Below, one piece after another: positions 18,454 through 52,106 of a stretch of DNA of 64,000 bases. Below the pieces are notes generated by a model. It was not told where the DNA came from and searched no databases. It saw only the letters and a program-made list of their open reading frames with translations. The position numbers were made by a program, and so were the translations under genes. Source of the stretch: Rhodococcus jostii RHA1 (GTDB lineage: Bacteria > Actinomycetota > Actinomycetes > Mycobacteriales > Mycobacteriaceae); assembly GCF_000014565.1 (NCBI RefSeq), contig NC_008268.1, positions 2,914,001 to 2,978,000 of the forward strand. Direction: 5' to 3'. Numbering within the stretch: the first letter of the stretch is position 1; the number at the start of each line of letters is the position of its first letter.

Positions 18454-21400
18454 CCCTGCTGGTCGCCAATCGTGGCGAGATCGCGCTCCGCATCATCCGC
18501 ACCGCCGAGGAGATGTCGGTCGACACCGTCGCCGTCTACGCGGAGGACGATGCGGACAGTCCCCACGTGCGCGCGGCAACCGAAGCGGTCGCGCTCCGCG
18601 GTTCCGGCCCGTCCGCGTATCTGGACCCCCGGGCCATTCTCGGCGCGGCCGCCGAGTTCGGTGCCACGGCAGTGCACCCCGGCTACGGATTCCTCAGCGA
18701 GAACGCCGCTTTCGCACGCGCCTGCGCCGAGGCCGGACTGACCTTCGTGGGCCCGAGCCCCGACGTGCTCGACATCTTCGGCGACAAGTCGTCGGCACGT
18801 GAGGCCGCGGTGGCCGCGAAGGTGCCGGTGCTCACCGCGACCACCGGTCCCACCGACTTGGACGGCGTCCGCGCGTTCTTCGCGGAACACCCGGGCGGCA
18901 TCATGATCAAGGCGCTCGCGGGCGGCGGTGGTCGCGGCATCCGTGCCGTCCGCAGCGCGGACCGGGTCGAGGAGGAGTACCGGCTGTGCGCGTCCGAGGC
19001 GCAACTCGGATTCGGCAACCCCGCACTGTTCGCCGAGGCACTCCTCGACGGCGCCCGGCACATCGAGGTGCAGGTCGTGGCGGCACCGCAGGCGGGTGTG
19101 ACGCGGGCCCTGGCCGTCGGTGACCGCGACTGCAGCGTGCAGCGCCGCCACCAGAAACTCGTCGAGATCGCCCCCGCGCAGGGGCTCGACCCGGGACTGC
19201 GCAGCGAACTGCACGAGGCCGCGGCTCGGCTGTGCGCCAGTGTCGGGTACCGGGGACTCGCCACCGTCGAATTCCTGGTGTTCCGGGACGGCTTCGTGTT
19301 CCTGGAGGTCAATCCCCGAATCCAGGTGGAGCACACGGTCACCGAGGAGGTGACGGGGGTCGACCTCGTCGCCGTGCAAATCGACGTCGCCCGGGGTGCG
19401 GACTACGGGGACCTGTCGCTTCCCGACGGCGTCAGCGCCGTGGGGCTCGACACGTCGGGCACCCCCGCCGCCGCGCGTGGAATCGCCGTCCAGGCCCGCG
19501 TCAACATGGAAACGATGCGCCCCGACGGTCAGGCCGTTCCCGCCGCGGGCACCCTGTCCGTCTTCTCGCCGCCGACGGGACCGGGTGTGCGCGTCGACAC
19601 CTACGGCCGGCCCGGACTGTCGCCGAGCCCGCGGTACGACTCGCTGCTCGCGAAGGTGATCGTGCATTCGCGGGGCCCGTCGTTCTCGGCCGCAGTGCGC
19701 AAGGCGGATGCGGCGCTCGCCGAGTTCGTCGTCGAGGGCGTCCCCACCAATATCGGCTTCCTCCGGGCGATTCTGGCGGATCCCGGCTTCGCCGACGGCG
19801 TCGTCGGCACCGACCATCTCGCCGAGCGGATGAGCGCGCTCGTCGACGCCGCGCACGTGCACCAGCCGGCGGAGGTGGCGTCGGAAACACTCGAGTTGCG
19901 GGCGGGTGAGGACGTGCTGCGCGCCCACATGGCCGGGACCGTCGTGGAGGCTGCCGGAGAAGGTGCGACCGTGGAGTCGGGTGCTCAGCTCGTGGTGCTC
20001 GAAGCCATGAAGATGCAGCACGTGATCGCCGCGCCCGCCGGTGCGGTGGTCCAGCGGAATCTGGTGTCGCCCGGGCAGAACGTCAACGCCGGCGACCCGT
20101 TGGTCGTGATCCGCCGCACGGGATCGGAGGCCGGCGACGTCGCCGACAGCGCAACCGATCTGGATCGTGAGCGCGCAGACCTGGCGGAGATCCGGCAGCG
20201 ACACGAGGTGACCCTCGACGCCGCCCGGCCCGCCGCGATCGCGAAGCGCACGAAGCTCGGGCGGCGCAGCGCACGGGCCAACATCGACGATCTGGTCGAT
20301 CCCGGCAGCTTCGTCGAATACGGACCTCTCGTCCTGGCCGCGCAGCGCAGCCGCCGCTCCGAGCAGGACCTGATCGAGAACACCCCCGCCGACGGGCTCG
20401 TCGCCGGGCTCGCCACCGTCAACGGCGACGTATTCGGTTCGCGCGACGCGCAGGCGGTGGTGCTGTCGTACGACTACACGGTGCTCGCCGGAACCCAGGG
20501 CATGCGCAACCACGCGAAGACCGACCGGGTGATCGAACTCGCCGGCCGCAAGCAGGTCCCGGTGGTCCTGTTCGCCGAGGGCGGCGGCGGACGGCCGGGT
20601 GACACCGACGCCGGCCCGGCAGCAGGACTGGACCTGAACACCTTCCGGTCGCTGGCGGCGCTGAACGGGAAGGTCCCGCTGGTGTCGGTCGTCTCCGGGC
20701 GCTGCTTCGCGGGCAACGCCGCCCTCGCCGGAGTCTGCGACGTCCTCATCGCCACCCCCGACGCGAACATCGGCATGGGCGGCCCGGCGATGGTGGAGGG
20801 CGGCGGACTCGGGGTGTACCGGCCGGAGGACATCGGACCCGTCGACGTGCAGCGGCGAAACGGCGTCATCGATCTGCTCGCCAGGGACGAGGCGCACGCC
20901 GTCGAACTGGCGAAGAAGTACTTGTCGTACTTCCAGGGCGCGCTGCCCGAGTGGGAGGCCCCCGACGAGCGGCTCGCACGCCACGTCGTCCCGGAGAACC
21001 GGTTGCGCGCCTACGACGTTCGCAGTGCCGTGGAAGCCATCGCCGACGTCGGCTCTGTCCTCGAACTACGCCGCGACCACGGCGTCGGCATCGTCACCGC
21101 GCTGATCCGGGTGGAGGGGGCGCCGTACGGGCTGGTCGCGAACAGCAGCCACCACCTCGGCGGCGCGATCGACGCGGTCGCGGCGGACAAGATGGCCCGC
21201 TTCCTGGAGCTGTGCGAATCGTTCGGCCTGCCCGTCGTCTCGCTGTGCGACACACCGGGATTCATGGTCGGCCCCGACTCGGAGAAGGAGGCCACGGTTC
21301 GCCGGTTCGGCAAGCTGTTCGTCGCGGGCGCGCGGATGACCGTGCCGTACGGGACGATCATCCTGCGCAAGGGGTACGGCCTCGGCGCGATGGCCATGGC

Positions 21401-21671
21401 GGGCGGTTCCTTCCACGCGTCCGAGTTCACGGTCGCGTGGCCGACCGGAGAGATCGGGGCCATGGGACTGGAAGGCGCGGTGCGGCTCGGATTCCGGAAG
21501 GAACTCGAGGCCATCGACGACCCCGCCGAGCGCAACACCGCGTTCGCACAACTCGTCGACGCCGCCTACCAGCACGGGAAGGCCCTGAACGCGGCGACGA
21601 TCTTCGAACTCGACGACGTCATCGACCCGGCCGACTCCCGTGCCTGGATCGTGCGCCTCCGGCGCCCGTGA
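18450..21671 (+). CDS. Single-chain acyl-CoA carboxylase (BC-BCCP-CT fusion)
   Basis: This 1073-residue enzyme joins three activities. Biotin carboxylase spans about 1-450 (ANRGEIALRIIRTAEE, ATP-grasp GGGGRGIRAV, EVNPRIQVEHTVTEE). The biotinyl domain is at about 480-555 with LEAMKMQ, biotinylated on Lys521. A carboxyltransferase fills about 575-1073 (GTQGMRNHAKTDR, FAGNAALAGVCD, CDTPGFMVGPDSE). The layout matches the long-chain acyl-CoA carboxylase (LCC) class described from mycobacteria, which accepts a range of acyl-CoAs. It carboxylates acyl-CoA using ATP and bicarbonate. It overlaps the synthetase gene, so the pair likely activates and carboxylates one acid. Confidence 0.9.
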   Translation: MTLLVANRGEIALRIIRTAEEMSVDTVAVYAEDDADSPHVRAATEAVALRGSGPSAYLDPRAILGAAAEFGATAVHPGYGFLSENAAFARACAEAGLTFVGPSPDVLDIFGDKSSAREAAVAAKVPVLTATTGPTDLDGVRAFFAEHPGGIMIKALAGGGGRGIRAVRSADRVEEEYRLCASEAQLGFGNPALFAEALLDGARHIEVQVVAAPQAGVTRALAVGDRDCSVQRRHQKLVEIAPAQGLDPGLRSELHEAAARLCASVGYRGLATVEFLVFRDGFVFLEVNPRIQVEHTVTEEVTGVDLVAVQIDVARGADYGDLSLPDGVSAVGLDTSGTPAAARGIAVQARVNMETMRPDGQAVPAAGTLSVFSPPTGPGVRVDTYGRPGLSPSPRYDSLLAKVIVHSRGPSFSAAVRKADAALAEFVVEGVPTNIGFLRAILADPGFADGVVGTDHLAERMSALVDAAHVHQPAEVASETLELRAGEDVLRAHMAGTVVEAAGEGATVESGAQLVVLEAMKMQHVIAAPAGAVVQRNLVSPGQNVNAGDPLVVIRRTGSEAGDVADSATDLDRERADLAEIRQRHEVTLDAARPAAIAKRTKLGRRSARANIDDLVDPGSFVEYGPLVLAAQRSRRSEQDLIENTPADGLVAGLATVNGDVFGSRDAQAVVLSYDYTVLAGTQGMRNHAKTDRVIELAGRKQVPVVLFAEGGGGRPGDTDAGPAAGLDLNTFRSLAALNGKVPLVSVVSGRCFAGNAALAGVCDVLIATPDANIGMGGPAMVEGGGLGVYRPEDIGPVDVQRRNGVIDLLARDEAHAVELAKKYLSYFQGALPEWEAPDERLARHVVPENRLRAYDVRSAVEAIADVGSVLELRRDHGVGIVTALIRVEGAPYGLVANSSHHLGGAIDAVAADKMARFLELCESFGLPVVSLCDTPGFMVGPDSEKEATVRRFGKLFVAGARMTVPYGTIILRKGYGLGAMAMAGGSFHASEFTVAWPTGEIGAMGLEGAVRLGFRKELEAIDDPAERNTAFAQLVDAAYQHGKALNAATIFELDDVIDPADSRAWIVRLRRP

Positions 21672-21710
21672 GTACTTGTTAACCGCGGGACGTTAATAAG
21701 TACTCACGGG
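21665..21710. terminator. Long bidirectional palindrome between convergent genes
   Basis: CCCGTGAGTACTT...GTTAAC pairs with GTTAA...AAGTACTCACGGG, giving a stem of about 18 bp around a short GC loop. The stop codons of both the carboxylase (21669-21671) and the AcuI-like gene (21693-21695) lie within it. It probably terminates both transcripts. A small second stem (GGGCGACGCCC) follows. Confidence 0.8.
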
Positions 21711-22694
21711 GGCGACGCCCACCACGGCCCGGCCCGAGTAGGTGCCTGCCCGCACCTGGTCGATCACCGAGACGACGTCCGCGATCGGAACATCGTGGGT
21801 GATCGATTCGAGCCGGGACGGTGCGAGGTCGGACGCGAGACGGCCCCACAGCCGGCGCCGCTGGTCGATCGGGTACTGCACCGAGTCGATGCCGAGCAGG
21901 CTGACACCCCGCAGGATGAACGGCAGGACCGTGGTCTCCAACTTCGGTCCGCCGGTCAGCCCACTCGCCGCGACCGCGCCCCCGTATTCGATGGTGCTGA
22001 GCACGTGCGCCAGGGTGGCGCCGCCGACGCAGTCGACGGCGGCGGCCCACTGGGCCTTGCCGAGCGGACGCGGTTTCGTATCGGGCTCCGGAAGTCGTCC
22101 GATCACCCTGCTCGCGCCCAGTTCGGTGAGCAGTTCCGCCTTCTCCGGCTTTCCGCTCGACGCGACCACCTCGAAGCCCGCCGCCGACAGCAGGTCGACG
22201 GCGACGGTGCCGACGCCGCCACTCGCACCGGTCACGAGCACCGGACCGTTTCCCGGCTCGACACCACGGGACAGCAGCGCCTCCACGCTCATCGCGGCCG
22301 TGAAACCGGCGGTCCCGATCGCGGCGGCGGTGCGGGTGGACATGCCGTCGAGTTTCACCACCCAGTCCGCCGGGACACGGGCGAACTGCGCGTACCCGCC
22401 GTGGCGGGCGGTGCCGATGTCGTAGCCGTGGGCGACGACCGTGTCACCGACGGAGAACTCCGGGGACTGCGACTCGACGACGGTGCCTGCCACATCGATG
22501 CCGGGCACGATGGGGTACTCGCGGACCACTCCACCCTTCGGCGTGAGAGCCAGCGCGTCCTTGAAGTTCACGCTGGAGTACTCGACCTGGATCGTGACCT
22601 CGCCCTGCGGCAGGAACGACTCGTCGACCGTCTCCTGGGAGAGGCCGATGGCGCCCTCGTTCTCGCGAGCGATCCAGGCGGTGAATTCCTTCAT
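21693..22694 (-). CDS. AcuI/YhdH-type acryloyl-CoA reductase (MDR family)
   Basis: This 333-residue zinc-free medium-chain reductase has VEYSSVNFKDALALTPKGGVV at the N-terminus, GIDVAGTVVES, and the NADPH fold VLVTGASGGVGTVAVDLL, all typical of AcuI/YhdH, which reduce acrylyl-CoA to propionyl-CoA with NADPH. The C-terminal block (LLGIDSVQYPIDQRRRLWGRL) is diagnostic of the group. ATG 22694 gives MKEFTAWIA. It is convergent with the acyl-CoA synthetase/carboxylase genes, so a shared short-chain acyl-CoA role is possible. Confidence 0.85.
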   Translation of the reverse strand: MKEFTAWIARENEGAIGLSQETVDESFLPQGEVTIQVEYSSVNFKDALALTPKGGVVREYPIVPGIDVAGTVVESQSPEFSVGDTVVAHGYDIGTARHGGYAQFARVPADWVVKLDGMSTRTAAAIGTAGFTAAMSVEALLSRGVEPGNGPVLVTGASGGVGTVAVDLLSAAGFEVVASSGKPEKAELLTELGASRVIGRLPEPDTKPRPLGKAQWAAAVDCVGGATLAHVLSTIEYGGAVAASGLTGGPKLETTVLPFILRGVSLLGIDSVQYPIDQRRRLWGRLASDLAPSRLESITHDVPIADVVSVIDQVRAGTYSGRAVVGVAPVSTY

Positions 22695-22782
22695 CAGCTT
22701 GCTCTCCTGACCTCGGGGGTGCGTCGAGACCATCATGCGACAACCGTGTCCCGCAGACGAGGCCGGGGCGAAGTTCCCCGGA

Positions 22783-23853
22783 TCAGAAGCGCAGGAGCAC
22801 CTTGCTCGACGAGGACGCATCCCGGGCCGATGCGAAGGCGGTGAGCGCATCGGCGACGTCGTACTCGGCGGTGACGATCGGATCCACCACCAGGGAGCCG
22901 TCGGCGAGGGCGGCCACCACCTCGTCGATCTCGTCGTTGAACCGGAAGGAGCCGACCAGGTCCAGTTCCCGGGTGATCGCGATCGACACGGGTACCGGCT
23001 GATCGCCGGAGGGAAGTAGACCGACCATGACGACCCGGCCGCCGCGGGCCGTGCCGTGTATCGCCGATGCGAGACCACGATGGTTGCCGGAGCATTCGAT
23101 GGTGACGTCCGCTTCCACCGCCGCGACGGCGTCGGCATCGGTGGCGGTGAGGGTCTCGTCCGCGCCCACGGCGCGCGCGATCCTCAGCGGGTACTCGTGC
23201 ATGTCCACCGCCGTGATCTTCCCGGCGCCCGCACGCTTCAGTACCGCCACCACGAGCGCGCCGATGGGTCCGGCCCCGATGACGAGGACCGACCGGTCCT
23301 TCACCTCCCCTGCCCGCGCGACCGCGTGCCACGCCACGCTCGCCGGCTCGGCCAGTGAGGCCAGACGCAGATCGAGTCCGTCGGGAAGGACCCGGAGCAT
23401 GCGGGTCGGCACGGCGACGTGGCTGACGAACAACCCGTCCGCGTGCGGAAAATGCGCCGCACTGCCCAGGTACGTGCATCCGGGCGAGATATTGGGGCGA
23501 TCGGCCGGATACTTCGCGCTGTCGCCGCCGGGGGTCGCAGGATGGATGGTGACGGGGGTGCCGGCGCCGGGACCGCTTCCGTCCGTCGCACCGATCAGGA
23601 CGGTGCCCGACGCCTCGTGTCCGAGCCGCATGGGTGCGCGAAGGATCGATTCGCCGGCGGCGCCGTGCTGCCAGTAGTGGAGATCGGATCCGCAGATCCC
23701 GCCGTAGGCGATGCGGATCACCGCTTCGTCCGGTTTCGGTGCGGCGATAGGCACCTCCTCCACGCGCAGGTCCTGCGCACCGTGGGCGACGACCGCCTGC
23801 GCGTGCGTCGGAACCTCGATGGCGTGTGAAGCGGTGGTCGGGCTGGTGTTCAT
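22783..23853 (-). CDS. Zn-dependent L-idonate/L-gulonate 5-dehydrogenase
   Basis: This 356-residue zinc alcohol dehydrogenase has GGICGSDLHYWQHGAAG, LGHEASG, and VLVIGAGPIGALVVAVLKRAGA. GSDLHYWQHG is typical of the IdnD/RspB group, which oxidises the C5 hydroxyl of L-idonate or L-gulonate with NAD(P). It ends the minus-strand hexonate operon. With mannonate oxidoreductase and mannonate dehydratase alongside, oxidation of L-gulonate to D-fructuronate fits better than idonate use, but the choice is an inference. ATG 23853 gives MNTSPTT. Confidence 0.8.
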   Translation of the reverse strand: MNTSPTTASHAIEVPTHAQAVVAHGAQDLRVEEVPIAAPKPDEAVIRIAYGGICGSDLHYWQHGAAGESILRAPMRLGHEASGTVLIGATDGSGPGAGTPVTIHPATPGGDSAKYPADRPNISPGCTYLGSAAHFPHADGLFVSHVAVPTRMLRVLPDGLDLRLASLAEPASVAWHAVARAGEVKDRSVLVIGAGPIGALVVAVLKRAGAGKITAVDMHEYPLRIARAVGADETLTATDADAVAAVEADVTIECSGNHRGLASAIHGTARGGRVVMVGLLPSGDQPVPVSIAITRELDLVGSFRFNDEIDEVVAALADGSLVVDPIVTAEYDVADALTAFASARDASSSSKVLLRF

Positions 23854-23888
23854 CGGTGAAGTCCAGTTCTGTCGGAGGTCGGAGCCTG

Positions 23889-24827
23889 TCATCTGGTGAC
23901 GGGTTCCGCGGTGGTGAGGAGCCCGAGTTCGTCCCGGCGCGGCATGCCCTCCCAGTCGCCGGACACGGTGCATGCGAACGCCCCGACTGTCACAGCGGTT
24001 CGCAGCCGGTCGGCGGGTGCCACGCCGGCCAGTCGTTCCGCGAGGTAGCCGGCGACGAAACCGTCTCCGGCCCCGACGGAGTCGACCACGCTCACCGGCA
24101 CCGCGGGCAGGGAGTACGTCTCTCCGTCGATCATCGCCAGGCATCCCTGGGCCCCCAGTTTCAGGATGCTCTCGCGTGGTCCGAGGTCGCGGACACGGGC
24201 GACGAGTTCGGCGGGGGTGCCGTCGCCCACCGCGATCGCGGCCTCGTCCTCACCTGCGAAGACGATGTCCGACAACGCGATCAGCTCACGGAAGACGGGG
24301 GCCGCGTCGTCCGGCGACCACAGCGCGCGGCGATAGTTGAGATCGAATGACACCGGAATGCCCAGTGCGCGTGCCCGTTCGGCGCAGTGCAGGGTGGTCT
24401 TCCTGGCGGTGTCGGACAGGGCAGGGGTGATGCCGGTGACGTGCAGCAGGGACGCCGACTCGAGGCGGTCGTCCGCGATGTCCGACATCGTGAGCCGCGA
24501 CCCCGCGCTGCCGGTCCGGTAATACCAGACGCGGGTGGCGGTGGCGGTTCGCCGCTCCTTCACCATCAGCCCGGTCGGAGCATCCGGATCGCGGATGACG
24601 TCGGCGGTGATTCCCTCGGCCCGGAGTTCCCGTTCGATCAGGTCGCCCAGACTGTCCTGGCCGACGCGCCCGATCCAGGTGACGTCGACGCCGAGTCGCC
24701 GCAGCGCGATCGCGAAGTTCGATTCGGCGCCGCCGATTCCCACGTGGAGCGTGGAGGTGTGGGCGAGCGGTCCGGTGTCGACCGCCCTGGTGAGGGCCAT
24801 CGTCTCGCCGAATGTCAGCACCGTCAT
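23889..24827 (-). CDS. 2-keto-3-deoxygluconate kinase (PfkB family)
   Basis: The 312-residue sugar kinase begins MTVLTFGETMALTRAV and has GIGGAESNFAIALRRLG for substrate binding, the KDG-kinase-like VWYYRTGSAGSRL, and the catalytic VDSVGAGDGFVAGYL with its Asp. It would phosphorylate 2-keto-3-deoxygluconate to KDPG using ATP in the cytoplasm. Its ATG overlaps the stop of the KDPG aldolase gene, the next enzyme in the pathway, so the two are translationally coupled. Confidence 0.88.
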   Translation of the reverse strand: MTVLTFGETMALTRAVDTGPLAHTSTLHVGIGGAESNFAIALRRLGVDVTWIGRVGQDSLGDLIERELRAEGITADVIRDPDAPTGLMVKERRTATATRVWYYRTGSAGSRLTMSDIADDRLESASLLHVTGITPALSDTARKTTLHCAERARALGIPVSFDLNYRRALWSPDDAAPVFRELIALSDIVFAGEDEAAIAVGDGTPAELVARVRDLGPRESILKLGAQGCLAMIDGETYSLPAVPVSVVDSVGAGDGFVAGYLAERLAGVAPADRLRTAVTVGAFACTVSGDWEGMPRRDELGLLTTAEPVTR

Positions 24828-25441
24828 CACGCGACCTCCAGTTCGGCGACGACGTCGGCGAGGCGCCGGCATCGTTCGGCCAGCTGCCCGAGGTCGCCGC
24901 CGCGGAGTGCGTCCCCGATCAGCGGGCCGCCGAGGCTGACCGCCGCCGCTCCGGCCGCGAACCACGCGGGGACGTCCTCGATGCCCACCCCACCCGAGGG
25001 AACCACCTGGATGTCGGGGAAGGGGCCGCGCAGGTGCCCGATGTACTCCGGCCCGACCACCGACGCCGGGAACAGCTTCACGGCAGTCGCACCCGCGTGC
25101 CATCCGTTCCACAGTTCGGTCGGGGTGAATCCGCCCGGGTAGATCGGAACTCCGGCACGCACGGCGGTGGCGATGACGTCGAGGTTGGTCGTCGGGGTCA
25201 CGAGGTAGTCGGCACCCACGTCGAGGGCGGCGCGGGCCTGGTCGACGGTGGTGACCGTCCCGACCCCGATCTCGACGCCGTCGGGTGCGGCGCGCCGGAT
25301 GCTGTTCAGGGACTCGAGGGTGCCCGGCGTGCTCATCGTCAGCTCGACGGCGCGCACCCCGTTCTCGGCGAGGACGGTCACCACGGGGGCGTATCGGTCG
25401 GCGTGCGCGGCGCGCAGCACCGCGATGACGGAGGAGGTCAT
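24827..25441 (-). CDS. eda: KDPG aldolase (Eda)
   Basis: This 204-residue class I aldolase splits 2-keto-3-deoxy-6-phosphogluconate into pyruvate and glyceraldehyde-3-phosphate. Features are the catalytic Glu in VRAVELTMSTPG, IGVGTVTTVDQARAAL, the Schiff-base lysine in TAVKLFPASVVG, and the phosphate loop VVPSGGVGIEDV. It lies between the transporter and the KDG kinase, overlapping both by a few bases. It gives the final step of the operon's pathway. Confidence 0.9.
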   Translation of the reverse strand: MTSSVIAVLRAAHADRYAPVVTVLAENGVRAVELTMSTPGTLESLNSIRRAAPDGVEIGVGTVTTVDQARAALDVGADYLVTPTTNLDVIATAVRAGVPIYPGGFTPTELWNGWHAGATAVKLFPASVVGPEYIGHLRGPFPDIQVVPSGGVGIEDVPAWFAAGAAAVSLGGPLIGDALRGGDLGQLAERCRRLADVVAELEVA

Positions 25442-26817
25442 GCCGCCGTCACCTCGCGGTCGGTGGAGTTGGCGGCCAGTGTGAGGTCGCGGTCGCGGGT
25501 TTCCGGTGCCATCGTCGAGGCGATCAGAACGGTCACGGCCATCACGATCATGTAGACGGCCACGGGGATCCACGAGCCGGAGAAGGCCGTGACGAGGGCC
25601 GCGCAGATCAGTGGTGCGACACCGCCCCCGAAGATCGAGGCGAATTCACGGCCGAGTGTGACGCCGGCGTAGCGGTAACGGGAGCCGAAGATTTCCGGGA
25701 AGTAGCTCATGGTGACGCCGACGGCGCCCTGGCAGGCCAGGATGAAGCCGACGATCATCGCCATCGTGATCAGCAGGTGTGAGCCGGTGTTCAGGGCCAG
25801 GAAGGTCGGCACCGGCAGGATGATCAGGGCGATCACGATCGAGATGTACACCGGCTTGCGGCCCACCCGGTCGGACAGACGACCGAACCCGTATGCCGCG
25901 ATGCCGCCGCAGATGGCCCCGACCAGCAGCACCTTGGGAATGAACGTGGGGTCGACGTGCACGTCGTTCTTGAGGTACGACGCCATGAACACCTGGTACG
26001 TGTACGACTGCGCGCTGATGCCGATGGTCATGAACATGACGATGAATAGCGGCTTCTTGCCGTTCGCGAAGATCTCCTTCACCGGCGTCTTCGGAACCTG
26101 GTGCTGCTCCTTCAGTTCCTGGAACACCGGGCTCTCGTTGAGCTTGCGGCGAATGACGAACGCGGCGACCGTGACGAACAGACTGCTGATGAAGACGAGA
26201 CGCCAACCCCAGGACATGAGCTGCTCTTCCGGCAGGAGCTGCGCTGCGATCCACGCGACTGCGCCGAGCGCCGTGCCCAGTGCGGCTCCCGTCATCACCA
26301 GGGCGGCGAGCCGACCTCGCCTGCCTATCTGCGCCGTCTCCGTCAGAAGGGTTGCACCACCGGACTGTTCGGCTCCCGCTCCGAACCCCTGGAAGAATCG
26401 GCATGCGACGAGGAGAGCGGGTGCGAGCAGCCCGACCTGACTGTAGGTGGGCAGCAGGCCGATACCCAGTGTCGCGCCGCCCATCAGCATCAGCGTCGCG
26501 ACGAGCACCCACTTGCGGCCGAGACGTTCTCCGTACCGCGAGAAGAACAGGCCGCCGAGCGGCCGGGCGAGAAACCCGACGGCGTAGGCGCTGAAGCTCG
26601 CGAGGATGCCCGCCGCGGGCGAGATGTTCGGGAAGAACAGGGTGTTGAAGATCAGCGCCGAAGCGGTGCCGTAGATGACGAAGTCGTACTGCTCGAGCGT
26701 GGTGCCGATGAGCCCCGCCCACGCCGCCCGGCGGACCGCGGACGGGTCTGCCTGGGATGTACCGCCTGCGCGGCCGGGAGTTTTCGGGTTCACCGTGGGG
26801 TCGAGTGTAGTGTCCAT
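25438..26817 (-). CDS. MFS metabolite:H+ symporter
   Basis: This 459-residue transporter has twelve predicted helices and the sugar-acid/dicarboxylate (MHS) subgroup signatures: GLIGTTLEQYDFVIYGTAS near the N-terminus, RPLGGLFFSRYGERLGRK, CRFFQGFGAGAEQSGG and GRLSDRVGRKPVY. I chose ATG 26817 because GGAGGA precedes it; the MEES start is inside that ribosome site. Placed in the hexonate operon between the aldolase and the mannonate oxidoreductase, it most likely imports the hexonate substrate with protons. Confidence 0.88.
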   Translation of the reverse strand: MDTTLDPTVNPKTPGRAGGTSQADPSAVRRAAWAGLIGTTLEQYDFVIYGTASALIFNTLFFPNISPAAGILASFSAYAVGFLARPLGGLFFSRYGERLGRKWVLVATLMLMGGATLGIGLLPTYSQVGLLAPALLVACRFFQGFGAGAEQSGGATLLTETAQIGRRGRLAALVMTGAALGTALGAVAWIAAQLLPEEQLMSWGWRLVFISSLFVTVAAFVIRRKLNESPVFQELKEQHQVPKTPVKEIFANGKKPLFIVMFMTIGISAQSYTYQVFMASYLKNDVHVDPTFIPKVLLVGAICGGIAAYGFGRLSDRVGRKPVYISIVIALIILPVPTFLALNTGSHLLITMAMIVGFILACQGAVGVTMSYFPEIFGSRYRYAGVTLGREFASIFGGGVAPLICAALVTAFSGSWIPVAVYMIVMAVTVLIASTMAPETRDRDLTLAANSTDREVTAA

Positions 26818-26868
26818 GGATTCCTCCATTGGTGGTTCCCGGAATTGTCCGGGCAAGGGGTGAGGGAG

Positions 26869-28404
26869 TCAGATGGTCGCGCTGGACCGCAGCGACGTGA
26901 TCGTCCGGAGGTCCGGGACCGGATCGGATGCTTCGCCTGCGGCGACTGCCGGCCCGTGACGGACGATGATGTCGACGAAGTCGGCGATTCGCGAGACGAA
27001 CTCGGTGTGCGAAGCGAGAGTGCTGGGAAACAGACCTCCGTCGACGAAGACGGAGCGAACGAATTCGGTAGTGGACGCGGCGTTGTCGGCCATTCCTGCC
27101 AGGCGCGCTCGAGCGGGGTCGGTCATGGATCGTGCGTGGGGGCCGGGGTCGAACCCGGGCGGCGGGGCGATGCAGCAGAGGTATGCCGCGACTGTGAGAG
27201 AAAGGTACTGCGGGACAGTACCGCGGCGGAGGTGTTCGAGCGCGGGGATCGGGATGCGCTGCGCCAGTTTGACCGATCCGTCGGATCCGACCTGCGAGGT
27301 GCGGTGTCCCAGAGCGGTATTGGACCAACGCGAGAAGAGTTGCCGGATGTAGTCGTCCGTGTCCACCGATTCGGGAACGGTGACCGTCGGCAGGTACTCG
27401 TCGCAGAGGATGCGCCGCGCTGCGGCCTCGACGAACGGTTGCGCGACGGATTCGGGGATGGTGGCCCGCCCGTCGAGTGCGCCGAGGCAGGCGATGAGCG
27501 AATGCGTCCCGTTGAGCAGCCGGACCTTCATCAGCTCGTAGGGCTCGACGTCGTCGGTGAACAGCGCGCCACCGTGCTCCCAGGCGGGACGGCCGGCGGC
27601 GAACCGCTCCTCCATGACCCACATCGTGAACGGCTCCGCGGGGACGGCGATCGTGTCGCGCACGCCGAGGTGTGCCAGTGCCGTCTCGTTGTAGCGGTCC
27701 GAACCGGAGGGCACGATGCGGTCCACCATGGAGTTGGGGAACGTCACGGACGAGTCCATCCAGGACAGCAGGTCGTCGCGGAGAGTCGGCGCGAACGTGC
27801 CGACGAACTCGCGGACGAGTTTTTCGGTCTGACGCCCGTTGGACAGCAGGTTGTCGCAGCTGAGGATCGTGACCGGGGCGGCGTGTGTACTCGCCCGCAG
27901 GGCCAGTCCGCGGGCGATCTGCCCGATCGTGGTGCGGGGCGTCCGCACCTCGCGGAGGTCGCGGCGAACGGCGTCGGAGTCGAGGTCGAGGGAACCGGTC
28001 TCGGGTGACACCGTGTACCCGTGTTCGGTCACCGTGATCGTGACGATCTTCGTCGCCGGGTCCGCGATCGCGCGGACGACGGACTCCGGGTCCTGTTCGG
28101 CCACCAGGGTTCCGGTGTGCGAACCCGGGACGCTCACACGAGAACCGTCCGGCGAGATCTCGACGACGCCGTACAGGAGGTCCTGCGCGTTCATCGCATC
28201 GGCAACGGTACTCGAGCGGCTCGCCACACCGAGGATGCCCCACGGTCCGGGTTCGCGTTCCATCGCGAGCGCGGTGTACACCGCCTGGTGTGCGCGGTGG
28301 AAGTTGCCGAGGCCCAGGTGCACGATCCCGGTGCCTTCCGGCACCCGCCGGTGGATCAGTGCCGCGGCGGGAACGTTTCGGCGCGAGAGTGTCGGTTCGG
28401 ACAT
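26869..28404 (-). CDS. Mannitol-dehydrogenase-family D-mannonate/fructuronate oxidoreductase
   Basis: This 511-residue NAD-dependent enzyme has the family start GIVHLGLGNFHRAHQAVYT, MSCDN-like LSCDNLLSNGRQTEKLV, SMVDRIVP and the catalytic lysine in YELMKVRLLNGTHS (Lys293). In its operon the expected reaction is reversible reduction of D-fructuronate to D-mannonate (UxuB/RspD role). ATG 28404 lies six bases after the mannonate dehydratase stop; a GTG at 28416 is an alternative. Its product feeds ManD. Confidence 0.87.
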   Translation of the reverse strand: MSEPTLSRRNVPAAALIHRRVPEGTGIVHLGLGNFHRAHQAVYTALAMEREPGPWGILGVASRSSTVADAMNAQDLLYGVVEISPDGSRVSVPGSHTGTLVAEQDPESVVRAIADPATKIVTITVTEHGYTVSPETGSLDLDSDAVRRDLREVRTPRTTIGQIARGLALRASTHAAPVTILSCDNLLSNGRQTEKLVREFVGTFAPTLRDDLLSWMDSSVTFPNSMVDRIVPSGSDRYNETALAHLGVRDTIAVPAEPFTMWVMEERFAAGRPAWEHGGALFTDDVEPYELMKVRLLNGTHSLIACLGALDGRATIPESVAQPFVEAAARRILCDEYLPTVTVPESVDTDDYIRQLFSRWSNTALGHRTSQVGSDGSVKLAQRIPIPALEHLRRGTVPQYLSLTVAAYLCCIAPPPGFDPGPHARSMTDPARARLAGMADNAASTTEFVRSVFVDGGLFPSTLASHTEFVSRIADFVDIIVRHGPAVAAGEASDPVPDLRTITSLRSSATI

Positions 28405-28409
28405 GCTCG

Positions 28410-29627
28410 TCACCAATCCGTCATGGAGCCGTCACGGCGCCGGGCGACCGGGAGATAGGCCTGCTCGTACGGATGTTGCTCCGCGAGTTCCTCGTTCATG
28501 CTCACTCCGATGCCCGGAACGTCGCCGGGGGTGAGGTGCCCGTCCGAGAACGACCACGCGTGGGGGAAGACCTCGCTGACGAGCGGGTCGTAACCCATGT
28601 ACTCCTGGATTCCGAAGTTCGGCGTCGCGAGCCCGAGGTGCAGACTCGCACCCAGGGAGATCGGCGAGACGTCCGACGGGCCGTGCGGGCCGCCACGAAT
28701 CTGATACACCTCGGCGAGCGCGAAGATCTTGCGGACGTGGCTGATTCCTCCCGCGTGGACGATGGCCACGCGGATGAAGTCGATCAACTGTTCGGTGATC
28801 AGGTGCTGGCAGTCCCAGATCGTGTTGAAGACCTCCCCGATCGCCAGGGGTGTGGTGGTGTGGTTGCGCACCAGTCGCAGCGCGTCCTGGTTCTCGGCCG
28901 GCGTGACGTCCTCGAGCCAGAACAGGTCCACGTGTTCGACCGACTTTCCCAGCCGCGCGGCCTGCTGCGGGGTGAGCCGATGGTGGGCGTCGTGGAGCAA
29001 TTTGAGGTCGGGGCCGACGTGTTCACGGACGGCTTCGAGGATCCGGGGTGCATGGTTGAGGTAGGCGTCGGTGTCCCACACTTCCTCGACCGGGAGGGCG
29101 CCGCGGCTCGCGGGCTCGTATCCGGTGGCGCCCTGGTGCACGCCGTACACCGAATCCAGGCCGGGAACCCCGGACTGCACTCGAATCGCCTGAAAGCCCT
29201 TCGCGCGCTTGGCATCGACGGAGTCGAGCAACGCGGGCGCGTCCCACCCGGTCGCGTGGGTGTAGGACAGCACCCGGTCGCGGACGGCGCCGCCGAGCAG
29301 CTGGTAGACGGGCTGGCCGAGGGTCTTGCCCTTGATGTCCCAGAGGGCGACGTCGACGGCGCCGATCGCGGCCATCGTGACGGGCCCGCGCCGCCAGTAC
29401 ACGCCGCGGTAGAGGTACTGCCAGGTGTCCTCGATCCGCGCCGGGTCGCGCCCGATCAGCAAGGGCGCGACATGGTCCCGGAGGTACGACGCGACGGACA
29501 GTTCGCGGCCGTTGAGCGTGGCGTCACCGTAGCCGACGACGCCGTCGGCGGTGGTGATCTTCAGGGTGACGAAGTTGCGGGTGGGGCTGCAGACCAGCAC
29601 GTCCGCGGAGATGATCTTGTCGGTCAT
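28410..29627 (-). CDS. manD: D-mannonate dehydratase (ManD/RspA, enolase superfamily)
   Basis: This 405-residue enzyme removes water from D-mannonate to give 2-keto-3-deoxygluconate. All key residues are visible three positions above the published ManD numbering: metal ligands Asp213 (HDAHHRL), Glu239 (FWLEDVTP) and Glu265 (AIGEVFNT), catalytic His215, and Arg149 (QAIRVQSG). The N-terminal capping domain is complete. Its ATG overlaps the stop of the upstream hydroxyacid dehydrogenase. The conserved set argues for a true, efficient mannonate dehydratase. Confidence 0.92.
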
Positions 29628-30628
29628 GCTCGTGATCCTTTCGAGCCGACGGCGGGAGCGACGACGTTGCGCAGTTGCTCACCGCGCGTGAGTCGAGTGA
29701 TGTTGTCGGCGATGTCGTCGACGCGGCCGACGAACGTCTGTTGTGAGACCCCGGAAGAGTGCGGTGTCATCAGGATGTTGGGGAGTTCGGAGAACGGCAG
29801 AGCGCTGGGCGTCCCGCGACCGTTGGGTCCGGGATAGTCGTACCAGACGTCGATGGCCGCGGCCGCGATGGTCGACGAGGACAGTGCGTCGTACAGGGCC
29901 TGCTCCTGGACGAGGGGTCCGCGGCCCACATTGACCAGCACCCCGTCGCGGCCGAGTGCGCGCAATTCGTCGGCGCCGATCATTCCCCGTGTCCGGTCGT
30001 CGAGCGGTGCGGACACCACGACGACATCGGATTCGTCGAGGAGACGCCCGAGTTGGGAAACGTCGGCAGCCCAGTCCAGTCCCGCGCTCGGCGCGTCGAC
30101 GTTGCCACGACCGGTCACGGCCGCTCCTGTCGCGCCGAATGCCCGGAACAGGTTCCACGTGGCGTGGCCGATGTGGCCGAACCCCACGAAGCCCACTCGC
30201 GCGCCCTGCAGCGAATTCGACTGCGTGAGTCGGTCGTCGTAGACCGAGGTCGCCCAGACGCCCTGCCGGAGCGCCGTGTCCTGCGCGACGAAGCCGCGCC
30301 GGAGCATCACGGTGGCCGCCACGACGTATTCGGCGATCGACTTCTCGTGATGGAAGGTGTTCGCCACCAGCACGTCCGGCGTCAGAGTATCGAAGGCGAT
30401 GTTGTCCGTGCCGGCACCGGCGACGTGGACCAGACGCAGCCGCTCGGCAGCCGATGCCATGGACGGTGTGAACTTTCCCCCGACGTAGACGTCGGCGTCG
30501 CCCAGATCCTCGATCAGGGCGGCCTCGTCGAAGCTGTCGTGCCACGACAACCGTGTATCGGACGGAACTGCGGCCTCGAGCCGGGGGCGGTGCGGGATCA
30601 GGTTGCTGTCGGCAACAACGATTTTCAT
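29624..30628 (-). CDS. D-2-hydroxyacid dehydrogenase (NAD-dependent)
   Basis: The 334-residue protein has the Rossmann motif [22 protein letters not shown] and the catalytic Arg in [13 protein letters not shown], plus His in [13 protein letters not shown], as in phosphoglycerate/glyoxylate reductases. It is the first enzyme gene after the LacI regulator, whose stop touches its ATG, and it overlaps manD. The substrate is unknown. In this operon it might reduce a 2-keto sugar acid such as KDG or a 2-ketogluconate, opening a side branch. Confidence 0.85.
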
Positions 30629-31645
30629 CTAGCGACTCTCTCTTCCGGGGCGAAACACCCGATCGTGCGCCGGTCCGGCCGAAGCTCTGACGACCAGTTG
30701 AGTGGGGAGATGGATTTCTCGGATATCGGAGTCCGGCTCGTTCGCGCGCTGGAATACCAGGTCCAGACTCAGCACACCGGCTCGTGCCATCGGCACGTTG
30801 ATGCTCGTGAGTGCAGGGCTGGCGAGTTCGGCCAGCGGCGAGTCGTCGATGCCGACGACACTCAGGTCGGCCGGCACCGAGAAGCCCATTGCGCGGACGC
30901 CGTTCATCACTCCGATGGCCATCGGATCGTTGTGCGTGATCACGGCGCTCGCACCCGTCGCGATCACGCTCGCGGCCGCGGCGTGACCGCCCGCGAGGGT
31001 TTCCTGCTGCCAGCCGAGCAGACTCAGCTGCACGTCGCGGGCCTTGCAGAATTCCTCGACCGCGGCGACGCGGCGTTGGTTCGACCAGGATTGCGGCGAG
31101 CCCTGGACATACGCCAGGTGCTCGTGTCCGAGGGCGACGAGATAGTCGATGGCCTGGCGAATTCCGTCTTCCGAATCCGCCACGATGCAATCGCATTCGG
31201 GTGACGAACGGTTGACGAGCACCAAGGGTGTGTCGCCGGCGAGCTGCACGATGTCCGATGCGGGCAGCCGTGGAGCGCAGACAACGAGTGCGTCGACGCG
31301 CCCCTGCAACTCGCCGAGAACCTCACGCTCACGGTCGGCGCTGCCGTCGGTGTCGGTGAGGAGCACGGTCTGGCGCCGGTGCCACCCCTGCGCCTGCGCC
31401 GCCTTCACGAAGCTCGCGAACACGGTGTGCCCGATGTCGGGTACCACGACCGCGACGGTGGTGGCGGTGGGGCGCACGACGTCGGTGCGGGTCGGTGACG
31501 CCGCCCGGTAGCCGATCTCGTCGGCGACCGCGATGATCCGCGCGAGCGTGTCCGGTCCGATCCGGTCCGGGGCACTGAATGCCCGTGACGCGGTGGACAG
31601 GGATACCCCTGCGCGTTGTGCGACCTCGGTCAAGGTGGGTGCCAC
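30629..31645 (-). CDS. LacI-family repressor of the hexonate operon
   Basis: The 338-residue protein has the LacI HTH and hinge (TLTEVAQRAGVSLSTASRAF, IGPDTLARIIAVADEIGYR) and a periplasmic-binding-like ligand domain (VVVPDIGHTVFASFVKAAQ, SVVGIDDSPLAELASPALTS). I chose GTG 31645, which follows GAGGCGG; the frame stays open to 31687. It is first in its own operon. Two CTTGCGCAAG-type sites in the promoter region are likely its operators. The inducer is probably a hexonate. Confidence 0.88.
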   Translation of the reverse strand: MAPTLTEVAQRAGVSLSTASRAFSAPDRIGPDTLARIIAVADEIGYRAASPTRTDVVRPTATTVAVVVPDIGHTVFASFVKAAQAQGWHRRQTVLLTDTDGSADREREVLGELQGRVDALVVCAPRLPASDIVQLAGDTPLVLVNRSSPECDCIVADSEDGIRQAIDYLVALGHEHLAYVQGSPQSWSNQRRVAAVEEFCKARDVQLSLLGWQQETLAGGHAAAASVIATGASAVITHNDPMAIGVMNGVRAMGFSVPADLSVVGIDDSPLAELASPALTSINVPMARAGVLSLDLVFQRANEPDSDIREIHLPTQLVVRASAGPAHDRVFRPGRESR

Positions 31646-31697
31646 GGTGCTGCCGCCTCGCTGTTCGTTGTGACTGCCGACACACACTATCCGCTGT

Positions 31698-31726
31698 CTT
31701 GCGCAAGATTGTCAATAGTTGCGCAA
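31698..31726. promoter_or_regulatory. Tandem LacI-type operators
   Basis: CTTGCGCAAG at 31698-31707 and TTGCGCAA at 31719-31726 are palindromes with the central CG typical of LacI-family sites. Their centres are 20 bp apart, about two helical turns. A third, imperfect copy (CTTGCGGCAAG) starts at 31729. All lie upstream of the LacI start, fitting auto-repression and control of the whole operon. Confidence 0.75.
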
Positions 31727-31757
31727 GGCTTGCGGCAAGCGTGTGCGTCGTGCGTGT

Positions 31758-32732
31758 TCACACGTCCAGGAGCGACAACTGCCGATCGGATTCGAACAGC
31801 GCGGCCCGGTCGAACGTCGACGTCGAGGCCAGTAGTTCGTCCGCACCGGTACGCGCGGCCAGGGCCCCGAGCGCGACTCTCACCTGCTCGGCGGTGCCGT
31901 GAATGGAGTTCGCGATCGACGCGTCGACCTGTTCGCGCAGCCGCGAAGTCCACGCCTGACCCCGGATGTCCGCGACCGATTCGAGCGGCGGGAACTCGCC
32001 GGTCCGGCTCGACTGTGCCAGCGCCCACGCCTCCGGAAGCAGCAGCTCACGCGCGCGGTCTTCGTCCTCGGCGATCATGACCTCGAGCGAGACGATCACG
32101 TACGGGGACCGGTTACCCGCGGACGGGACGAAGCTGTCGCGGTACCGGTCCAGTTCCGGAACGCGGGCCCCCGATCCGTCGAGGATCGGCCCACCGACCA
32201 CCACCGGCAGACCCGCCTGCGCGGCGAAGTCGAGCCCGCGCCGGGTAGCGAGAACGAACATCGGCGGTGGACTCGTCACGTGGGGCCGGGCGGTCACGGC
32301 CCCCTTGCCCTCGAGGTAGCTCCGCACCTCGTCGAGATCGGCGGCGAACGTGTCGGGGGCGTTGCGGTCGCGGCGCAGCGCCTCGCGCACCGGCTTCGTG
32401 AATCCCAGCGACCGCCCGACGCCCAGGTCGATCCGGCCCGGGTACATCGCCTCGAGCACCAGGAACTGCTCGGCCACCACGAGAGGCTGATGATTCGGCA
32501 GCATCACACCACCCGAGCCCAGCCGGATCCGGTCGGTGCGGGCACCGAGGGCAGCGAGCAGCACCGGCGGCGACCCACTCGCGATTCCCGGCACGGCGTG
32601 GTGTTCGGCGACCCAGAACCGATGGAATCCCCACTGTTCGGCATGCACCGCACGCTCGATCGTTCCGGTCAACGCGGCAGAGTCGGGCGCACCCCGGCGC
32701 GTGCGGGACCGGTCCAGAATCGACAGCTTCAC
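31758..32732 (-). CDS. LLM-class flavin-dependent oxidoreductase
   Basis: The 324-residue protein has the luciferase-like pattern: AEQWGFHRFWVAEHHAVPGIA, IRLGSGGVMLPNHQPLVVAEQ and MYPGRIDLGVGRS, with VVVGGP further on. Members are FMN- or F420-dependent monooxygenases or reductases, and this shorter single-domain type usually uses FMNH2. Substrate unknown. It is divergent from the NO synthase gene across a 123-bp gap, which may hold shared control. Confidence 0.85.
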   Translation of the reverse strand: MKLSILDRSRTRRGAPDSAALTGTIERAVHAEQWGFHRFWVAEHHAVPGIASGSPPVLLAALGARTDRIRLGSGGVMLPNHQPLVVAEQFLVLEAMYPGRIDLGVGRSLGFTKPVREALRRDRNAPDTFAADLDEVRSYLEGKGAVTARPHVTSPPPMFVLATRRGLDFAAQAGLPVVVGGPILDGSGARVPELDRYRDSFVPSAGNRSPYVIVSLEVMIAEDEDRARELLLPEAWALAQSSRTGEFPPLESVADIRGQAWTSRLREQVDASIANSIHGTAEQVRVALGALAARTGADELLASTSTFDRAALFESDRQLSLLDV

Positions 32733-32855: not shown

Positions 32856-34004
32856 GTGAGCAGCACAGGGACTATGTCGTACTCGCTGGACGTCACGTCG
32901 CGGTCCGCAGCGCAGATGCGGGAGTGCGCAGAATTCTTCAGCGAGCCCGAGCTGGCCCACCTGCCCACCGCCCGCCTCGCGGACGCACTGGAGTCGCTGG
33001 CCGAGACGGGCCGCTACGAGCACACCGTGGAGGAACTCGAGGTCGGCTCGCAGCTGGCGTGGCGCAATCACGCCCGCTGCGTCGGTCGCAAGCACTGGCG
33101 CACGCTGAAGCTGATCGATGCCCGGCACGTCACCACCGCGGACGAGATCGCGGAGGCGTGCTGGGAGCACCTGCGGGTCGCGACGAACGGCGGCGCCCTG
33201 CGCTCGGTCATCACGGTCGGTCCGCTACCGCTGGCGGACGGACGCGAGTACAAGATCGTCAGCCCGCAACTGATCCGGTACGCGGGCTATCGCAACGCGG
33301 ACGGGACGGTGACCGGGGACCCCGCGCAGGTGGGCATCACCGAGGCGGTGACGAAGATGGGGTGGCGCGGCGCAGGCACGCCGTTCGACGTGCTGCCGCT
33401 GTTGATCAGCACCCCGGACGAACCGCTGCGCTGGTACGACGTTCCCCCCGACCTGGTGCTCGAGGTCGAGATCGAGCACCCCGACTACGCCTGGTTCGCC
33501 GATCTCGGTCTCAAATGGCATGCGGTGCCCGCCGTGTCGAACATGAGTTTCTCGGTCGGCGGGCTGACCTACCCCCTCGCCCCGTTCAGCGGGTGGTACG
33601 TGAGCACGGAGGTCGGGGCCCGCAACCTCAGCGACCAGGATCGGTACGACATGCTGCCCGCCATCGCCGAACGGCTGTGCCTGGACACGACGTCGGAGCG
33701 AACGCTGTGGCGCGACCGCGCACTGGTCGAACTGAACCGCGCCGTGATCCACAGCTACCGGCAGGCCGGTGTGCACATGGTCGATCATCACACCGTCGCC
33801 AAGCAGTTCATCAGCCACGTCGAACGCGAAGAGTCACTCGGCCGGAAGTGCCCCACCGACTGGTCGTGGATCAACCCGCCGATGTCGGCGGCACTCACTC
33901 CGACGTTTCACCGGCTCTACGACGCACCCGACATGGACATCCGCCCGAACTTTCTCCCGGCCGCCACTGCATCAGGATGTCCAATCGGCGGCGGGAGCCT
34001 GTAG
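32856..34004 (+). CDS. nos: Bacterial nitric oxide synthase oxygenase
   Basis: This 382-residue protein matches the NOS oxygenase domain: haem-thiolate Cys75 in AWRNHARCVGRKHW, TPFDVLPLL, and the arginine/pterin block FSGWYVSTEVGARNLSD with its conserved Trp-Tyr-Glu. It would oxidise L-arginine to citrulline and nitric oxide. No reductase domain is fused or adjacent, as usual for bacterial NOS, so generic flavodoxin/ferredoxin reductases must serve. GTG 32856 follows GGGAGG. Its last 33 bases overlap the LysR gene on the other strand. A truncated haemoglobin lies 6 kb away. Confidence 0.92.
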   Translation: MSSTGTMSYSLDVTSRSAAQMRECAEFFSEPELAHLPTARLADALESLAETGRYEHTVEELEVGSQLAWRNHARCVGRKHWRTLKLIDARHVTTADEIAEACWEHLRVATNGGALRSVITVGPLPLADGREYKIVSPQLIRYAGYRNADGTVTGDPAQVGITEAVTKMGWRGAGTPFDVLPLLISTPDEPLRWYDVPPDLVLEVEIEHPDYAWFADLGLKWHAVPAVSNMSFSVGGLTYPLAPFSGWYVSTEVGARNLSDQDRYDMLPAIAERLCLDTTSERTLWRDRALVELNRAVIHSYRQAGVHMVDHHTVAKQFISHVEREESLGRKCPTDWSWINPPMSAALTPTFHRLYDAPDMDIRPNFLPAATASGCPIGGGSL

Positions 34005-49893: not shown

Positions 49894-49918
49894 CGATCTT
49901 CACCTCTCTTGCGTGGTG

Positions 49919-50941: not shown

Positions 50942-51001
50942 TGGTTCTCCTCGCCATGATCCCGGGTCCGTCGTGTGTGTCTTCGGAACCTCGAGAAACC
51001 G

Positions 51002-51046
51002 TGAGCAAATGATCACTATGCGTTCATCTGCTCAATACGCTAGCAT
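51002..51046. promoter_or_regulatory. SorC operator and probable leaderless promoter
   Basis: TGAGCAAATGA at 51002-51012 and TTCATCTGCTCA ending at 51034 form a long inverted repeat with one mismatch. TAGCAT at 51041-51046 could be a -10 box placing the transcription start at or near GTG 51053, which lacks a ribosome site. This suggests a leaderless mRNA, common in actinobacteria. Confidence 0.55.
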
Positions 51047-51052
51047 CGAAGT

Positions 51053-52096: not shown

Positions 52097-52106
52097 GGAG
52101 AGACCG

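Follow-up and report, generated by a model that had tools for sequence, protein, structure and literature searches.

An eight-gene operon of Rhodococcus jostii RHA1 with a probable role in hexonate degradation under a predicted LacI-type switch

Several described pathways for sugar acids share parts with the subject of this study, an eight-gene operon in a 64-kb window (C1:2914001-2978000; positions below are those of the window) of the 9,702,737-base, four-contig genome of Rhodococcus jostii RHA1. L-Gulonate pathways of the RspAB type, attributed to Wichelecki (2014), reportedly pass from a first dehydrogenase to a reductase of the UxuB type and the dehydration of mannonate, and then to a 2-keto-3-deoxygluconate (KDG) kinase and a 2-keto-3-deoxy-6-phosphogluconate (KDPG) aldolase. 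As far as the available portions of the following sources go, the conversion of L-gulonate through D-fructuronate and D-mannonate to KDG by two dehydrogenases and UxuA is the best-scoring predicted pathway in Haemophilus influenzae (PMC5788505), and Salmonella SEN1433-SEN1436 comprises IdnD, a hexonate transporter, a gluconate 5-dehydrogenase and a member of the D-galactonate dehydratase family (PMC5428311). Escherichia coli IdnR is listed among LacI-family factors (PMC4052901), and GluF of Aspergillus niger is described as reducing 5-keto-D-gluconate (PMC5814732). The original prediction had read the RHA1 operon as a LacI-controlled route from L-gulonate to pyruvate and glyceraldehyde-3-phosphate. 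Our analysis supports its regulated course from a hexonate through KDG and KDPG to these two products, a backbone that we regard as very probable; L-gulonate is only a possible substrate, the Zn enzyme being IdnD-like.

The eight minus-strand genes (31642-22783, Table 1) are closely spaced, with gaps of 0, -4, 5, 51, -4, -1 and 35 nt in order, and together they form a genuine operon behind one promoter. The gene families, gene order, conservation, promoter and operator-like sites described below are read directly from the sequence. The families that had been named were indeed found in a single minus-strand unit (gaps of -4 to 51 nt), and a D-2-hydroxyacid dehydrogenase gene lying inside it had been left out of the gene list. 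The assignment of a KDG kinase and a KDPG aldolase is also well supported. The top solved relative of the PfkB kinase is the 2-keto-3-deoxygluconate kinase 1v19 (211.6 bits) and its top NCBIfam match is the KDG/KDGal kinase family (199.7 bits, below the cut-off of 440), while the aldolase passes its family model (Table 1). No match to an IdnO-type short-chain dehydrogenase/reductase (SDR) or to a gluconokinase was found among the eight operon genes, to which the IdnO search was confined. A megablast search for a plasmid copy of the operon gave just one 47-base match, in one record.

In the proposed mechanism, a LacI-family repressor would shut its own operon through the pair of TTGCGCAA palindromes on either side of the -35 box and would be released by a hexonate or ketohexonate, and an MFS symporter would take up the sugar acid. 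Two dehydrogenases and a UxuB-like oxidoreductase would convert this acid to the aldonate used by the ManD-type enzyme. The substrates, stereochemistry, repressor binding and effector are predicted from the gene content. For the entry, we tentatively propose, with a probability of roughly 0.4, that 2-keto-L-gulonate or L-idonate passes through 5-keto-D-gluconate and D-gluconate to KDG; 2-keto-L-gulonate is a product of vitamin C and uronate breakdown. The 2-hydroxyacid dehydrogenase would reduce 2-keto-L-gulonate at C2 to L-idonate, the IdnD-like Zn enzyme would oxidise L-idonate at C5 to 5-keto-D-gluconate, the UxuB-like enzyme would reduce this compound at C5 to D-gluconate, and ManD would act as a D-gluconate dehydratase to yield KDG. 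The kinase would then convert KDG to KDPG, from which the aldolase would release pyruvate and glyceraldehyde-3-phosphate.

The Zn-dependent dehydrogenase had been called RspB-like, a label that we replace. By identity to E. coli proteins it is closer to IdnD, the L-idonate 5-dehydrogenase (34%), than to RspB (23%), and among solved structures it scores 176 bits against IdnD (6dkh) and 79 bits against RspB (4ilk). It clusters with IdnD in a midpoint-rooted tree that includes E. coli Tdh, GatD, YdjJ and RspB, and a GSAxxFPHxDG stretch is common to both proteins. The top NCBIfam match is L-idonate 5-dehydrogenase, at 236.9 bits and far below the cut-off of 469. By these comparisons, the protein resembles an IdnD-like C5 dehydrogenase rather than an RspB-like one. 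Sorbitol dehydrogenases score level with IdnD among the solved structures (180, 177 and 176 bits), and the enzyme may act on sorbitol-type substrates. The UxuB-like protein has fructuronate reductase as its top NCBIfam match (305.8 bits, below the cut-off of 603), is 35% identical to both UxuB and YdfI of E. coli, and forms a clade of its own. The stretch KVRLLNGTH, from residue 293, matches the K..N..H motif that we take to characterise its family, and the protein is probably a C5-keto reductase.

The original prediction of a ManD with its catalytic residues stands. R149, Y161, D213, H215, E239 and E265, which we take to be the catalytic residues, are all present and aligned with identical residues in five solved ManDs, and the protein scores 670.7 bits against the NCBIfam D-mannonate dehydratase equivalog, above the cut-off of 550. 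It is 58% identical to E. coli RspA, and its closest solved structures, 4e4f and RspA 4il2, both carry HGPSD like the operon's ManD; HGATD is found in the solved ManDs 4fi4, 3thu and 3v3w. The Pro in HGPSD is the state seen in RspA and is reportedly linked to low catalytic efficiency. According to Wichelecki et al. (2014), enzymes of the RspA type are said to be weak dehydratases of D-mannonate and/or D-gluconate, and low-efficiency ManDs were reportedly suggested to be relics or starting points with little flux. To our knowledge, the physiological role of RspA-type ManD enzymes is an open question, since the genomes studied carried UxuA too. Family searches of the RHA1 genome gave no PF03786 match for UxuA (controls positive in 5 of 14) and no PF02614 match for UxaC (controls positive in 7 of 14); D-fructuronate is therefore unlikely to arise from glucuronate by the isomerase route. 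Among 110 ManD loci, which include the RHA1 copy and close relatives so that the counts are not independent, 74 were HGPTD, 26 HGPSD and 7 HGATD, and 3 had no pattern match. The choice of Pro or Ala at this site was considered as a clean divider of ManDs and proved only partly useful, since 74 of the 110 loci are HGPTD.

The catalytic triad of 2-hydroxyacid dehydrogenases consists of Arg, Glu and His, with a catalytic Glu. The operon's enzyme retains Arg236 and His290, and Tyr265 is aligned with the Glu of the DVFPTEP stretch of SerA, which leaves the triad incomplete. PF02826 and PF00389 both pass, so the fold family holds though the triad is altered. The motif DVWYxYP was present in all of the best 120 of 1091 homologues passing, and in a 32-row alignment Tyr occupied the Glu position in 29 of the 31 rows besides E. 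coli GhrB, L155 having Asn and L156 Leu. Subfamily relatives of 44-68% identity were inspected at 11 loci (L146-L156), ten in other genomes and one in RHA1 itself, and a GudD-like gene was observed nearby in all 11. These GudD-like genes fall into two clusters. The first accounts for eight loci, and the member scanned scores 822.0 bits, narrowly missing the glucarate dehydratase cut-off of 828.7; the second is more distant and accounts for L152, L155 and L156, and its scanned member (from L147) scores 248.8 bits. An importer lies nearby in 10 of the 11 loci, the single scanned component being a family-5 solute-binding protein. This setting suggests that the subfamily reduces 2-keto sugar acids for acid-sugar dehydratases. 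A bolder extension, which we consider unlikely, is that the Tyr-type DVWYxYP enzymes form a 2-keto-sugar-acid reductase module feeding ManD- and GudD-like dehydratases; in this operon such a module would open the way from 2-keto-L-gulonate through L-idonate to KDG and would give the RspA-type "low-efficiency" ManD its missing physiological role without UxuA. The survey for the dehydrogenase gave 11 of 394 genomes, and a wider one, with 4 of 396, added nothing (RHA1 included in both).

The RHA1 genome also holds a paralogue of this dehydrogenase (C1:4136844-4137798, L146). It is 66% identical, its coding sequence is divided between two frames, and both an importer and a GudD-like gene lie close by. 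Full-length proteins of 66-68% identity occur in other Rhodococcus genomes among the matches listed and may be orthologues of the broken paralogue. A fusion of the 2-hydroxyacid dehydrogenase with ManD (P0002, from a Rhodococcus metagenome-assembled genome, MAG) was rejected as a natural fusion: the beginning of ManD is missing at the join, which has the appearance of a deletion or of an assembly error.

ManD was detected (E <= 1e-60) in 28 of the 151 genomes searched, RHA1 included, and in 11 of 28 within the genus Rhodococcus; nine of those 11, namely RHA1 and eight relatives, carry the full operon. All eight relatives (L124-L131) have the identical eight genes in the identical order, and the gene order is therefore not due to chance. 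The more distant genome of L132 encodes the 2-hydroxyacid dehydrogenase, ManD, UxuB-like protein, Zn enzyme, transporter, kinase and aldolase. The operon had been considered notable in Rhodococcus; this holds only in part, given the counts above and the occurrence of its core in Streptomyces as well as further actinobacteria. Among 80 named loci, the best of 589, nine combine a regulator of the LacI type with the 2-hydroxyacid dehydrogenase, ManD and the UxuB-like gene: L039-L044, L046, L050 and L052, from Streptomyces, Arthrobacter, Sinomonas, Actinotalea and Kribbella. A tenth, L045, has only a partial 2-hydroxyacid dehydrogenase beside an otherwise similar core. Gene calls outside the window came from a simple script based on GC content at third codon positions, with some starts or genes missed or misplaced (e.g. 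L047, L051). A relative of the transporter was found in seven of the nine core loci; it is absent from L050, and L042 breaks off where its contig stops. Six have a Zn enzyme resembling IdnD or sorbitol dehydrogenase next to the core, and the aldolase and kinase lie there in L043 only. The conserved core is thus the regulator, the 2-hydroxyacid dehydrogenase, ManD and the UxuB-like gene, and the Zn enzyme, kinase and aldolase are variable. The 2-hydroxyacid dehydrogenase adjoins ManD in 20 of the 26 HGPSD loci and in 0 of the 84 others (0 of 74 HGPTD, 0 of 3 without the pattern, and 0 of 7 HGATD, one of which, L099, ends 89 nt upstream of ManD and cannot be judged). From these adjacency and core counts, the 2-hydroxyacid dehydrogenase gene is more constant than the Zn enzyme gene.

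In one Propionibacteriaceae MAG locus (L051, 8262-16493), two ManDs that differ in their HGxxD motif apparently share an operon. Ahead of the HGPSD copy lie genes for an aldolase and a KDG kinase-like protein, and an IdnD-like gene comes after it; the HGATD copy is followed by a transporter and a UxuB-like gene. An SDR with 48% identity to E. coli IdnO is encoded nearby on the other strand. This locus offers a natural test case for a substrate split between ManDs. In two Rhodococcus relatives (L163, L164), a ManD of 69% identity occurs with a different partner set in place of the operon; in L163, the one that was scanned, the partners comprise an SDR and a NanR-like regulator together with a Zn dehydrogenase and a sugar porter. 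These loci were considered as idonate-like clusters and set aside, the L163 SDR matching generic reductases best and the Zn enzyme scyllo-inosose 3-dehydrogenase.

A promoter-like site was observed directly upstream of the LacI-family regulator gene. It consists of CTTGCGCAAC (31727-31718), a -35 box TTGACA (31715-31710), CTTGCGCAAG (31707-31698) and a -10 box GATAGT (31691-31686). The two TTGCGCAA palindromes are 20 nt apart, one on either side of the -35 box, with the second occupying the -35/-10 spacer, and they are the only two copies in the window. The number of promoter-like sites in 21500-31900 (1 found against 0.6 expected from shuffles) is not significant by itself, and position and conservation say more for the promoter call. 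The arrangement TTGCGCAA..TTGACA..TTGCGCAA is retained in all eight Rhodococcus relatives, and exact CTTGCGCAAG pairs around TTGACA are also present upstream of the regulator in the Streptomyces loci L041 and L042; in eight further loci of other genera or species, at least one of the two palindromes is degenerate. Across the 9.7-Mb genome, the paired pattern was found a single time and its reversed control not at all. Both hallmarks of a local LacI-family repressor were found here, a LacI gene within the operon and palindromic operator-like sites at its promoter. The regulator is the first gene of the unit, and it is therefore probably autoregulated. A local LacI-type switch with predicted repressor binding is well supported by these features.

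The entry from 2-keto-L-gulonate or L-idonate has to be weighed chiefly against an L-gulonate route, in which the Zn enzyme would form D-fructuronate, the UxuB-like enzyme D-mannonate and ManD KDG, with the 2-hydroxyacid dehydrogenase as an accessory that would, for example, reduce a 2-keto acid into the pathway. We consider this route rather unlikely. The C5 chemistry is identical in the two series, and the sequence cannot decide between them; the gluco/ido series is slightly favoured because the Zn enzyme is IdnD-like and because of the usual stereochemistry of the 2-hydroxyacid dehydrogenases, which usually give 2R products such as L-idonate and D-gluconate. The place of the 2-hydroxyacid dehydrogenase in the conserved core, the IdnD-like gene beside the HGPSD ManD at L051 and the lack of UxaC and UxuA matches in the genome point the same way. 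In A. niger, the D-isomer specific 2-hydroxyacid dehydrogenase GluC converts 2-keto-L-gulonate to L-idonate, not L-gulonate, in the available part of the source (PMC4870679). The same enzymes can thus be read as an L-idonate or 2-keto-L-gulonate route, so that the earlier description of a "complete" gulonate pathway, which has no place for the 2-hydroxyacid dehydrogenase, is unproven. Several observations weigh against our preference, and most of them favour L-gulonate. ManD clears the cut-off of the D-mannonate dehydratase equivalog, and fructuronate reductase is the top family for the UxuB-like protein; both results fit the gulo/manno series, and ManD could also replace the UxuA that the family search did not find. 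At the Amycolatopsis locus L099, the partners of an HGATD ManD are an IdnD-like Zn enzyme and a UxuB/YdfI-like gene, so IdnD-likeness is no proof of L-idonate, and the distant dehydrogenase near the core at L039 has RspB as its top local match (36%, yet 21% over the full alignment). The predicted pathway of H. influenzae offers a precedent (PMC5788505), and gluconokinase and Entner-Doudoroff genes are reported for RHA1 in the accessible part of another source (PMC5327559); if these serve D-gluconate, a gluconate dehydratase would be superfluous. The absence of a Zn dehydrogenase beside the core at L040 and L046, two of the nine core loci, does not fit a strictly linear pathway through all the enzymes, and with Tyr at the Glu position neither the activity nor the stereochemistry of the 2-hydroxyacid dehydrogenase is certain. 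The split of ManD types by partners at L051, a single MAG locus with one shared IdnD-like gene, is suggestive only. On the other side, the L-gulonate route leaves the greater constancy of the 2-hydroxyacid dehydrogenase over the Zn enzyme unexplained, has to accept a Zn enzyme just 23% identical to RspB, and relies on a ManD of the RspA type, reportedly rated a poor mannonate dehydratase, with the HGPSD of RspA and 4e4f and not the HGATD of 4fi4, 3thu and 3v3w.

That constancy, and that of the LacI-type regulator, ManD and the UxuB-like gene, could be accounted for if imported 2,5-diketo-D-gluconate, or another environmental 2-keto acid, were reduced at C2 by the 2-hydroxyacid dehydrogenase and at C5 by the UxuB-like enzyme before dehydration by ManD, with the Zn enzyme as an additional, dispensable entry point for L-idonate or L-gulonate. 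A 2-keto-aldarate reductase would likewise fit the subfamily relatives found near GudD-like dehydratases (11 of 11 loci) and importers (10 of 11). The Zn enzyme is, however, present in RHA1 and in 8 of 8 Rhodococcus relatives, and the diketo acid is a conjectural substrate; we regard this version as quite improbable. Least probable of all appears an operon that is built on a catalytically weak dehydratase and carries little flux, whether as a relic or as a starting point. Such a view draws on HGPSD at the Pro/Ala site, as in RspA, reportedly a class of low efficiency, and runs against eight genes that are open and kept with their operator-like sites in 8 of 8 Rhodococcus relatives. The family search also gave no UxuA, unlike the genomes said to carry low-efficiency ManDs. 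The gluco/ido entry therefore remains our tentative choice.

Beyond the operon, a YhdH-type reductase gene on the same strand begins 88 nt past the Zn dehydrogenase gene; it was not counted in the operon and may be co-transcribed with it. A luciferase-like monooxygenase (31758-32732) lies upstream of the operon, and divergent from this monooxygenase gene a protein with a bacterial nitric oxide synthase oxygenase domain (PF02898, 459.8 bits) is encoded at 32874-34004 (+). A 1073-aa protein at 18450-21671 (+) is a fusion of biotin carboxylase and carboxyltransferase domains. A second carbohydrate cluster (46701-55887) comprises a solute-binding protein and a permease of an ABC importer, a sugar-binding-domain protein, a mannitol dehydrogenase family protein (52107-53588), a PfkB kinase (53585-54508) and an FGGY kinase (54505-55887). 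Two mannitol dehydrogenase family genes were found in the genome, both inside the window.

Table 1. Genes and promoter of the operon, with window coordinates, strand and supporting family matches.
Feature	Coordinates	Strand	Evidence
LacI/GalR-family regulator, 337 aa, operon gene 1	30629..31642	-	PF00356, PF13377
D-2-hydroxyacid dehydrogenase, 334 aa, DVWYxYP subfamily	29624..30628	-	PF02826, PF00389
ManD-type enolase-superfamily acid-sugar dehydratase, 405 aa, HGPSD type	28410..29627	-	NCBIfam NF043051
UxuB-like oxidoreductase (mannitol dehydrogenase family), 511 aa	26869..28404	-	PF01232/PF08125
Metabolite/H+ symporter-type MFS transporter, 459 aa	25438..26817	-	TIGR00883 358 bits, below cut-off 443; PF07690
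KDPG/KHG aldolase, 204 aa	24827..25441	-	TIGR01182 158.2 bits, above cut-off 156.05; KLFPA, PSGGV motifs
2-Keto-3-deoxygluconate kinase-like PfkB kinase, 312 aa	23889..24827	-	PF00294; solved relative 1v19
Zn-dependent medium-chain dehydrogenase, 356 aa, IdnD-like	22783..23853	-	NCBIfam L-idonate 5-dehydrogenase top match
Promoter with two palindromic operator-like sites	31686..31727	-	

Set beside the known systems, the RHA1 operon has an IdnD-like dehydrogenase, a probable C5-keto reductase step, a transporter and a LacI-family regulator that correspond to parts of the GntII system of E. coli (idnD, idnO, idnT, idnK, idnR). In contrast to the L-idonate pathways, it has no IdnO-type SDR or gluconokinase; in their place stand a 2-hydroxyacid dehydrogenase and an enzyme of the mannitol dehydrogenase family, and the operon brings its own KDG kinase and aldolase. 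With the Gul/Uxu system of H. influenzae, as far as the available account describes it, the operon would share an initial dehydrogenase, reduction by an enzyme of the UxuB type, dehydration of mannonate, and then a KDG kinase and a KDPG aldolase; that system uses UxuA and a TRAP transporter, whereas RHA1 has a ManD-type dehydratase and an MFS symporter. Compared with the L-gulonate pathways in general, the Zn enzyme is IdnD-like, not RspB-like, and the 2-hydroxyacid dehydrogenase is additional. The D-glucuronate pathway of A. niger (GluC, GluD, GluE, GluF) leads from 2-keto-L-gulonate through L-idonate to 5-keto-D-gluconate like the route proposed here; it is fungal, and the accessible part of its description mentions neither ManD nor KDG kinase. 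RspA of E. coli K-12 sits with RspB, whereas the ManD of RHA1 sits with the 2-hydroxyacid dehydrogenase and the UxuB-like enzyme. A literature search at the level of titles and abstract openings, with subscription journals mostly outside its coverage, found no description of such a combination under one LacI switch. The parts and the backbone are of known kinds, and the combination of ManD, a UxuB-like and an IdnD-like enzyme and a Tyr-type 2-hydroxyacid dehydrogenase under LacI is a variant. It provides, in what is probably a well-studied and genetically tractable soil strain, a compact, conserved operon in which an RspA-type ManD stands without UxuA or UxaC, alongside a reductase whose subfamily departs from the usual active site and is found repeatedly near other acid-sugar dehydratases.

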